64,000 nucleotides of DNA, taken from assembly GCA_021797825.1 (NCBI GenBank), contig JAJZZA010000001.1, positions 1 through 64,000 of the forward strand. The letters run 5' to 3'. Source of the stretch: Bacillota bacterium. GTDB lineage: Bacteria > Bacillota > Sulfobacillia > Sulfobacillales > Sulfobacillaceae. A program made the position numbers and the translations under genes. Below, one piece after another: positions 6,500 to 42,530 of the stretch (its first letter is position 1; each line of letters starts with the position of its first letter). The notes beneath the pieces are model-generated. The model ran no database searches and was not told the origin of the DNA. It saw nothing but the letters and a program-made list of their open reading frames with translations.

Positions 6500-6599
6500 A
6501 GGCGGCGCGGGCGGCTTTGGGGAGCAGGACCGCCGCTGGCGGGCGGTGGTGGTCCTTCCCGGGCGAGTCCTGGCGCCCAGTCAAAAGGAGGTGGGGGGT

Positions 6600-7265
6600 A
6601 TCAGGGAGCAGCGGCGATACACCTGTCAAGTGTGTGCGACGACGAGTGCGCGGTGGCTGGGGCGTTGTCCAGGGTGCGGGGGATTTAGCACCATGGTGGA
6701 GGAAGTGGTGTCGTCGGCTTCGGACCGTCCGGGCCGGCCAAAAACCGACACGTCCCAGCCCACCCCGATCGGGGATGTGGCGGAGGAATCCATCCTGCGC
6801 ATCCCGACCGGTCTGCCGGAGGTCGACCGGGTTCTGGGCGGGGGAGTGGTGCCGGGAGGCTTTATCTTATTGGGGGGCGATCCGGGAATCGGCAAATCGA
6901 CCCTTCTGTTGCAGATTGCCGCGCGGGTTGCGCTGTCGGGACCGGTCCTCTACATTACCGCCGAAGAATCTTTGGCGCAGACCAGGCTTCGCGCCGAACG
7001 GCTGGGATCCCTGCCGGAGGGGCTGTTTCTACTCGCGGAAGGCGACATCCACCAGATCGAACGGGTCATCGCGCGCCAGACCTGGAAAATGGTGGTTGTC
7101 GACTCGTTGCAGACGGTTTTTAATCCCGAGCTGGAATCGGCCCCGGGCAGCGTGGGCCAAGTCCGGGATATTGCCGCGCGTTTAATGCGGGTGGCCAAGC
7201 GCGGCTGCCCCATATTTCTGGTCGGGCACGTTAACAAAGAGGGGTCGATGCGGCCCGTGGCCTGA
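6600..7265 (+). CDS. radA: RadA/Sms, N-terminal half (zinc finger and ATPase), interrupted
   Basis: RadA is a RecA-like branch-migration helicase of recombinational repair. This 221-aa half has the C4 zinc finger (CQVC then CPGC, residues 9-26), Walker A GGDPGIGKST (about 92-101), the Walker B-like VVVDSLQT and the motif GHVNKEGS. At GHVNKEGS homology stops, and a short foreign tail (MRPVA) ends in TGA. The rest of RadA resumes at 8026. The start is unusual. A perfect AAAAGGAGG ends at 6591 with ATC at 6600 giving eight-base spacing and family-like length. The in-frame GTG at 6591 sits inside that ribosome site. GTG 6546 has no ribosome site. Confidence 0.8.
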   Translation: MREQRRYTCQVCATTSARWLGRCPGCGGFSTMVEEVVSSASDRPGRPKTDTSQPTPIGDVAEESILRIPTGLPEVDRVLGGGVVPGGFILLGGDPGIGKSTLLLQIAARVALSGPVLYITAEESLAQTRLRAERLGSLPEGLFLLAEGDIHQIERVIARQTWKMVVVDSLQTVFNPELESAPGSVGQVRDIAARLMRVAKRGCPIFLVGHVNKEGSMRPVA

Positions 7266-8025
7266 GGCAACTCAGACCAAGGCACCGGGCTATATGCATG
7301 GACAGCCGGATGGTTGGCGCGCGAGAGCCCGCCGACGCGACTGAATGTGCAGGAAACGGAGGCCATGCCTTTGGATCCTCAGAGACAATACGCCCGGCTC
7401 CTGACGCTTTGGGCAGAATCTGCGAAATCGGCACGCCGGATGGATCACCTGGCGCCTGGCCGCTGGCCACGGGAGTGGGATCCCTGGTGGCGGCTGGGAA
7501 GGCGGCTGGTGGAGCGCGGCATGGATGTGTTGCCGGTCCCCGGAGTTTTCCCGGTGCTGCTGGTGGCTTGGGATCAAACCGCCCCCGGTCGATCGTGGGC
7601 CGCTCTGGTTGATGCGGGCGACGCGCAGGGGCGCTTGGTTTACCGGCACGCGATTCGGATTGCGCTCGCGCCGGATGCGCCGGCGCTGGAGGGAGACCGG
7701 TTGGGATGGTTGGTTTCCCGGGATTTGGCGCTATTGCTTGGGGCACGCCTTTGGCGGACCCTGATCGAATGGCCGGATCATCCATGCGGACGGTGGCCGG
7801 AAAACGACCAGGCGCTAGCAATCCTAGGCGCTTTGGCCGCGCGGCCGGCAGCCTTTCGGCAAGCGCCGACGGACGACTGGAGCGTTTTGGCGCGATTATG
7901 GCGCCATCGCGGAATCCCGCAACGGATCCCGTCATGGCATCAGGACCCGCCCTACCGGTGGGTTCACCGAGTTGCCGACCGTTATGTCTGGCCTAGTCAG
8001 GATGAAGACAGTGTCCATTAATGCG
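7248..8025 (+). other. 778-bp segment interrupting radA
   Basis: RadA homologues read KEGS followed at once by a hydrophobic residue and AGPR. Here KEGS ends at 7247 and LAGPR begins at 8026, so 778 bases lie between. Removing exactly those bases restores an in-frame, family-like sequence. Both ends of the segment carry ATGCG (7248-7252 and 8021-8025). The segment holds one intact 218-aa frame and about 115 bases ahead of it. I see no transposase, integrase or homing-endonuclease motif. No intein end motif, group II 5' GTGYG or domain V is visible. Base composition matches the surroundings. Confidence 0.75.
7365..8021 (+). CDS. Unknown Trp-rich protein inside radA, 218 aa
   Basis: I do not recognise this protein. 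It starts at ATG 7365 with AGGAAACGGAGG just upstream. It has many Trp residues (for example PREWDPWWRLGRR, WRTLIEWPDH, PSWHQDPPYRWVHR), no signal peptide and no clear membrane segment. Codon use is like the host genes. It lies wholly within the segment that splits radA, in the same direction. Its last 20 bases overlap the ATG from which the second half of RadA could be translated, so the three frames look like a coupled series. No nuclease, integrase or splicing motif is visible. An earlier TTG start at 7314 is possible but lacks a ribosome site. Confidence 0.55.
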   Translation: MPLDPQRQYARLLTLWAESAKSARRMDHLAPGRWPREWDPWWRLGRRLVERGMDVLPVPGVFPVLLVAWDQTAPGRSWAALVDAGDAQGRLVYRHAIRIALAPDAPALEGDRLGWLVSRDLALLLGARLWRTLIEWPDHPCGRWPENDQALAILGALAARPAAFRQAPTDDWSVLARLWRHRGIPQRIPSWHQDPPYRWVHRVADRYVWPSQDEDSVH

Positions 8026-8754
8026 CTAGCGGGTCCGCGGGTGGTTGAACATCTGGTGGATGTCGTGTTGATGTTTGAGGGGGATCGCCAGCATGTGTTA
8101 AGGATGCTGCGCGGGATAAAAAACCGATTTGGTTCAACCAGTGAACTGGGCCTCTTTGCCATGGAAGGAGAAGGTCTGGTCGCGGTCGAGGATCCCAGTC
8201 GGGCATTGTTGGCCGAACGTCCGGTCGAAGCTCCGGGCTCGGCCGTGGTCTGTGCGGTGGAAGGCAGCCGTCCATTGCTGGTGGAAGTGCAGGCCCTTTT
8301 GGTTCGCAGTTTTGGCACGCCCCGGCGCGTGGTTTCGGGACTCGATCCCCATCGTGTCTCATTGGTGCTTGCCGTGCTGGAGCGGTACTTGGGGGCTCGG
8401 GTTTCCGAAATGGACGCCTATTTCAAACTGACCGGCGGCGTGTCACTGGATGACCCGGCGCTGGATCTGGGCGTGCTGGCGGCGGCTTGGTCGAATCTGA
8501 CCGGGCGGGCTATCGGACCGGATTGGGTGTTGGCCGGGGAGGTGGGCTTGACCGGCGAACTTCGCCGGGTTGCGCGGATGGCCGAGCGCTTGCGCGAGGC
8601 GGAACAAATGGGATTCAAAAAAGCGCTGGTGCCGGGGAGAATCTCCGAAATCCATCCCGGACTGGCTGTGGTCTCTTGTGAAGACGCGCGCGATGCCATG
8701 GTTAAACTGGGAGTCGGCCGGGTGCCGTCGCCCAATTTTGACGGCGGCCAGTAA
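8002..8754 (+). CDS. radA: RadA/Sms, C-terminal half (KNRFG motif and Lon-like domain)
   Basis: This 250-aa frame continues RadA from LAGPR onward (8026). It contains VEHLVDVVLMFEGD, the diagnostic KNRFGSTSELG motif that couples ATP and DNA binding, and the Lon-protease-like domain used for hexamer assembly (GGVSLDDPALDLGVLAAA). It is intact to the usual RadA end. It could be translated separately from ATG 8002, giving MKTVSINALAGPR, although the ribosome site there is poor. Alternatively it may be joined to the first half at RNA level. Both halves being free of further damage argues against long-standing decay. Usually disA follows radA; here it does not. Confidence 0.8.
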   Translation: MKTVSINALAGPRVVEHLVDVVLMFEGDRQHVLRMLRGIKNRFGSTSELGLFAMEGEGLVAVEDPSRALLAERPVEAPGSAVVCAVEGSRPLLVEVQALLVRSFGTPRRVVSGLDPHRVSLVLAVLERYLGARVSEMDAYFKLTGGVSLDDPALDLGVLAAAWSNLTGRAIGPDWVLAGEVGLTGELRRVARMAERLREAEQMGFKKALVPGRISEIHPGLAVVSCEDARDAMVKLGVGRVPSPNFDGGQ

Positions 8755-27387: not shown

Positions 27388-27463
27388 GCTGGCGTAGCTC
27401 AATTGGCAGAGCAACTGATTTGTAATCAGTAGGTTGCGGGTTCGAGTCCCATCGCCAGCTCCA
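27388..27463 (+). tRNA. tRNA-Thr (anticodon TGT)
   Basis: A full cloverleaf: acceptor GCTGGCG/CGCCAGC, anticodon stem ACTGA/TCAGT with loop TTTGTAA, T-arm GCGGG-TTCGAGT-CCCAT with one imperfect pair, encoded CCA. The anticodon TGT reads ACA. Confidence 0.97.
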
Positions 27464-27478
27464 CAACTTTATAGCAAT

Positions 27479-27564
27479 GGATGGGTGCCCGAGTGGCTAA
27501 AGGGGGCGGTCTGTAAAACCGCTGGCTAGCGCCTACGTTGGTTCGAATCCAACCCCATCCACCA
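27479..27564 (+). tRNA. tRNA-Tyr (anticodon GTA)
   Basis: 86 bases with a long variable arm, as expected for bacterial tRNA-Tyr. Acceptor GGATGGG/CCCATCC, anticodon stem GCGGT/ACCGC with loop CTGTAAA, encoded CCA. Confidence 0.97.
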
Positions 27565-27565
27565 T

Positions 27566-27721
<156 letters not shown>

Positions 27722-42316: not shown

Positions 42317-42330
42317 GATGGCACATTCAG

Positions 42331-42477
42331 GGAATTTCGGGTCAGGGAAAGCCGGCACCTCGATGGGGGTGAAACGGTGCGGACGCGCCACTGTACCTGG
42401 GGAGTTTCGTCGAAGAGCCACTTTCGGGGAAGGCCGACGGAACGTTGAACCAGAGCCAGGAGACCTGCCGAAATTCC
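42331..42477 (+). promoter_or_regulatory. Cobalamin riboswitch aptamer
   Basis: The closing stem P1 is GGAATTTCGG (42331-42340) with CCGAAATTCC (42468-42477), ten perfect pairs. Inside are the class features CGCCACTGTACC, AGCCACTT and the strongly conserved CCAGGAGACCTGCC near the 3' side. Binding of adenosyl- or another cobalamin should shut off the genes downstream through the terminator at 42531-42570. It controls block 2, not block 1. Confidence 0.9.
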
Positions 42478-42530
42478 GTGTCAACCCTTCGCGGGGAGGG
42501 GCGGCACCAAGAGCGGGAACCGGTGAGCCG

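Follow-up and report, generated by a model that had tools for sequence, protein, structure and literature searches.

The analysis of the window (the whole 64,000-nucleotide stretch of contig JAJZZA010000001.1) revealed a radA gene split by a 778-bp insert, which is present as a single copy in the 3.59-Mb genome. The two RadA halves matched adjoining stretches of the TIGR00416 profile (positions 4–227 and 227–434 of 454), and the protein runs to GHVNKEGS and restarts at LAGPR with nothing lost, as the original prediction of two intact halves had stated. Judged from its sequence, the insert is almost certainly a group I intron, and the features of the region are as follows:

6546–7245, + strand: 5′ exon of radA, ending in GGGT, start codon unsettled (TIGR00416 match, profile 4–227; translation)
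7246–8023, + strand: putative group I intron of 778 nt, whose last base is the G at 8023 (found at one and the same site in 31 genomes; structure and covariation; match to the covariance model R1)
7242–7256, + strand: P1, exon GGGT (7242–7245) with guide GCCC (7253–7256), U·G pair at the 5′ splice site (invariant P1)
7250–7252 with 8024–8026, + strand: P10, guide GCG with 3′ exon CGC (GCG/CGC in f1, UCG/CGA in f82)
7258–7279, + strand: P2 hairpin with a GNRA-type loop (GCAA; changes on both sides in 7 of 9 pairs)
7263–7265, + strand: in-frame stop TGA that ends the upstream radA frame, inside P2 (same place in 27 of 31 genomes)
7285–7397, + strand: P3 (7285–7290 with 7392–7397), enclosing P4, P5, P6, P6a, and the 5′ strand of P7
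7295–7300 with 7346–7351, + strand: P4, within the P3 span
7352–7354 with 7376–7378, + strand: P6, within the P3 span
7384–7389, + strand: 5′ strand of P7, within the P3 span
7365–8021, + strand: intron-encoded ORF, from ATG at 7365 (or TTG at 7371) to TAA (open in 35 of 35 introns examined; dN/dS)
7399–7414, + strand: 5′ arm of P8, pairing across the ORF with 7987–8002
7987–8002, + strand: 3′ arm of P8, pairing with 7399–7414
8010–8015, + strand: 3′ strand of P7 (P7 pairs 1–4 formed in 33 of 33)
8024–8754, + strand: 3′ exon of radA, starting CGCTAGCG, (..S)LAGPR (TIGR00416 match, profile 227–434; translation)

The survey comprised 61 genomes, from which the loci carrying the insert ORF or the radA halves were extracted and compared. 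In most genomes of the family and the order, the ORF adjoined the C-terminal half of radA, and 31 genomes, mostly relatives of Sulfobacillus, carried the insert at exactly one codon of radA, with lengths ranging from 678 to 817 bp and in all three phases. Because the same site recurs in these 31 genomes, some of which are assembled in only one to three contigs, an assembly error as the source of the split was ruled out. As for the borders, the predicted length of 778 bp held, while the best-supported position is 7246–8023 (GGGT/C...G/CGCT), two bases to the left of the one originally given. The borders are slidable by two bases because CG is found at both edges, and comparison with relatives favored the junctions 7245/7246 and 8023/8024. 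The second exon of two f82 genomes opens with CGAT, matched by AUCG in the guide, and in one of the two a T follows GGGT, yet the restored codon would still encode serine; together, these features favor GGGT and CG as the exon edges. The ATGCG noticed at both ends of the segment is indeed present, with the GCG of the 5′ copy forming part of the internal guide and the CG of the 3′ copy belonging to the 3′ exon. Its reading as a target-site duplication was rejected, since deleting one copy does not restore the frame.

The order of P3, P4–P6, P7, and P8 that typifies the group I core was found in the insert through an explicit structure, RNAalifold, and covariation, with RNAalifold arriving at these main helices on its own. 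The guide GCGGCCC pairs with both exons, namely with GGGU in P1, bearing the U·G at the cut, and with CGC in P10. This U·G was conserved in 30 of 30 distinct rows and was accompanied by the terminal intron G; the P10 pairing was weak in G057. In the explicit P1–P6a structure, 94.9% of the cells were paired against 83.5% in shuffled alignments, and 25 pairs changed on both sides against 18.1, a value that none of 500 shuffles reached, although these shuffles ignore kinship. When taken from the same genome, the two P8 arms matched each other more closely than in each of 5000 permutations, which equally ignore kinship. Compensatory changes back P2, P3, P5, P6, and P8 and are few for P4 and P7; pairs 1–4 of P7 were formed in 33 of 33, with supporting changes coming from only three genomes. 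A complementarity between a 5′ GCACTG and a 3′ CAGTGTC was considered as P7 and dropped; the GACAAY that follows P6 agrees with the group I arrangement and covaries with the 3′ strand.

The stop codon that closes the upstream radA frame is reached after 15 nt of the insert in 27 of the 31 genomes and after 30 nt in the other four, and all three stop codons are used at this position. Ribosome stalling at such stops has been proposed as an aid to intron folding (PMC3984707). In 21 of the 31 genomes, the stretch from the closest preceding in-frame stop to LAGPR contains no ATG, GTG, or TTG. Since the in-frame stop is present in all 31 and a start for the second piece is missing in 21, splicing seems the likeliest route to RadA. 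The removal of the segment at the RNA level, one of the possibilities raised originally, is strongly supported by the intron core, the guide, and the conserved stop.

Another of these possibilities was a functional two-piece RadA, in which the halves would be translated separately with an unrelated gene between them. G000 does offer in-frame starts for the second piece (GTG 15 nt and ATG 24 nt before LAGPR), but the 21 genomes without any such start in the open frame contradict this explanation, as does the conservation of the intron core and guide, and we regard it as very improbable. The precise insertion in a conserved motif, a position typical of inteins and introns, would also suit an intein, a group II intron, or a transposon. 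Nevertheless, an intein is excluded by the in-frame stops (31 of 31) and the free phase of the insert, a group II intron found no Rfam match, and a transposon or IStron is at odds with the single copy and with the lack of any transposase match in Pfam or NCBIfam, so that the probability of this set of explanations is close to nil. There is likewise only a very slim chance that the intron was once spliced and is now dead in this genome, with radA broken. In its favor, radA is perhaps dispensable, since no full match with either half was obtained, at the thresholds used, in eight genomes of the order (G008, G017, G015, G031, G030, G024, G027, and G041), several of them 95–98% complete; gene loss or assembly gaps are possible causes of this absence. 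Against it, this genome retains the core pairs, the guide, the terminal G, and both exons undamaged, and neither RadA nor the ORF exhibits decay.

For the group I intron, splicing would then proceed as follows. The guide at the intron 5′ end would pair with the last four bases of the first exon, GGGU, and with the first three of the second, CGC. The presumed cofactor, a guanosine bound in P7, would cut after the U of GGGU. The freed 5′ exon would attack after the terminal intron G, ligating GGGU to CGCU, and the protein would again read Gly-Ser-Leu-Ala where KEGS meets LAGPR. The stop near the intron start would halt ribosomes before the catalytic core, and the intron protein would be translated from a start site in P6.

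The Rfam search of the window produced no RF00028 match at the radA insert, whether at the gathering score or with E allowed up to 5, and the original prediction had also stated that no known intron signature was visible. This statement was mistaken, the insert being, with near certainty, a group I intron, one left unreported by the Rfam model. The miss is a limit of one model and no defining feature of group I introns, because R1, a covariance model built from the 5′ cores of the radA introns, finds introns that RF00028 does call, and the same shortfall of the Rfam model has been reported for archaeal group I introns (PMC6125680). The exact core pattern GCAGGAAAC N8–38 GGATCCTCAGAG was detected in at least 118 stretches from many bacterial phyla, and the core-pattern loci L126–L205 harbor related introns of the group I type, many of them within 23S rRNA genes, with two or three in some loci. 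Among the 19 core-pattern loci checked, many of which hold 23S rRNA, RF00028 was found in seven, each time overlapping an R1 match, and R1 matched 23S rRNA introns with E values down to 5e-19. Given that R1 finds 23S introns and that RF00028 and R1 matches overlap, the radA intron belongs with the group I introns of bacterial 23S genes, with which it shares the core blocks and the structure, whereas it differs in having a protein gene as host and in being missed by RF00028. The sampled 23S loci contained no relatives of the radA-intron ORF, and the seven matches obtained were further copies of the radA ORF.

Group I introns are described as scarcer in the protein genes of bacteria than in genes for RNA. 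Protein-coding hosts include recA, nrdE, nrdF, and flagellin (PMC3984707). The introns of these genes resemble the radA intron in their self-splicing type, in the conserved protein gene that hosts them, and in the in-frame stop soon after the 5′ exon, whereas the radA intron is common to an order and radA is absent from the hosts listed in that 2014 review (PMC3984707). No report of a radA group I intron was found in the literature searched for radA and group I introns. The radA intron represents a familiar type of element at an uncommon location; gene finders would read radA as two fragments in the carrier genomes, and the general Rfam model can miss introns of this kind.

With R1, 33 of the 42 genomes of the order yielded one copy each, as did G057, and three copies came from another class, these being inside radA at the identical site. 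Sulfobacillus thermotolerans, S. benefaciens, and S. acidophilus are among the named records that contain the core pattern. The uninterrupted allele sought among relatives was found in two members of the order, G036 and G037, in which radA is continuous, and a continuous radA devoid of the insert was also observed in G049 and G060 of the class. The RadA and ORF trees have their main clades in common, and the pairwise identities of the two proteins correlate (rho 0.65). Because G036 and G037 nest within the order (support 97/98), their intron-free radA points to a precise loss, for which separate gains may be an alternative. In G057 and f82, long branches leave both inheritance and transfer as possible sources of the intron. 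The very recent event suggested in the original prediction is contradicted by an insert common to most of the order and by a protein at about 30% median identity; these comparisons indicate an ancient intron, kept at one spot across a whole bacterial order. Such a site, together with an uninterrupted allele in one genus, leaves the cost, retention, and loss of the intron open to study. In G041, a weaker R1 copy (54.5 bits) was located outside radA (L124:1715–1845, − strand), surrounded by phage-like genes such as a head maturation protease and a possible tail fibre.

The intron-encoded protein comprises about 216 amino acids, and its frame starts in P6 and crosses P7, P3, and P8. Across 35 introns, the start is usually TTG, GTG, or ATG before DPQR, with a purine-rich, Shine–Dalgarno-like stretch in P6 (here, GGAGG at 7358–7362). 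The dN/dS values were 0.09–0.21 in five close pairs and 0.42 in one f2 pair, the distant pairs being saturated and uninformative, and they indicate purifying selection on the protein. Sequence searches against Pfam, NCBIfam, PHROGs, plasmid, and PDB collections returned nothing convincing, and one ORF member gave a weak rve match (E 0.04). Two AlphaFold models (pLDDT 90.4 and 87.3) aligned best with TIP26, HindIII, Hjc, VRR-Nuc, McrC, and other PD-(D/E)XK proteins; Foldseek reached a best E of 0.011, with no significant match for the first model against the PDB and viral models. As the Z scores are at most 7.4 and the Foldseek E is at best 0.011, the PD-(D/E)XK fold of the modeled protein is likely rather than proven. 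The catalytic D...(D/E)xK, with positions inferred from a predicted model, is not conserved in the 35-row alignment, in which the only invariant acid, D2, falls outside the predicted core. Additionally, K19, R22/R23, and R178 are conserved, which would suit nucleic-acid binding.

The PD-like predicted fold, the unconserved catalytic residues, and the conserved Lys and Arg residues tentatively suggest a former PD-(D/E)XK homing endonuclease that lost its active site and was kept as an aid to the folding or splicing of its own intron, a helper role that homing enzymes may adopt (PMC3984707). The PD-(D/E)XK-type homing endonucleases I-Ssp6803I and I-Bth0305I resemble it in the predicted core (VIA-align Z 5.5 over 88 residues and 5.3 over 83 residues, respectively), whereas the radA-intron protein has no PDB sequence match and its catalytic residues are not conserved. 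This same structural resemblance, along with the purifying selection on the ORF, would also fit an active but diverged homing endonuclease with no helper role; however, none of the nuclease-core acids is nearly invariant among the 35 members and the history of the intron looks mainly vertical, which makes an active enzyme rather unlikely. As for the putative splicing helper, an aid to its own intron has similarly been proposed for the LAGLIDADG maturase of the Thermotoga neapolitana 23S intron (cited in PMC3984707), from which the radA-intron protein differs in its predicted fold and in a role that is so far inferred. A bolder and decidedly speculative extension would be a new family of group I maturases made of dead PD-(D/E)XK enzymes, each with its gene overlapping the core of its own intron, so that translation and radA splicing would compete and act as a switch on a recombination helicase. 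The conserved intron protein offers a test case for the way in which a homing enzyme might turn into a splicing aid.

Elsewhere in the window, Rfam detected a cluster of four tRNA genes (27388–27718) and a cobalamin riboswitch (42321–42486).
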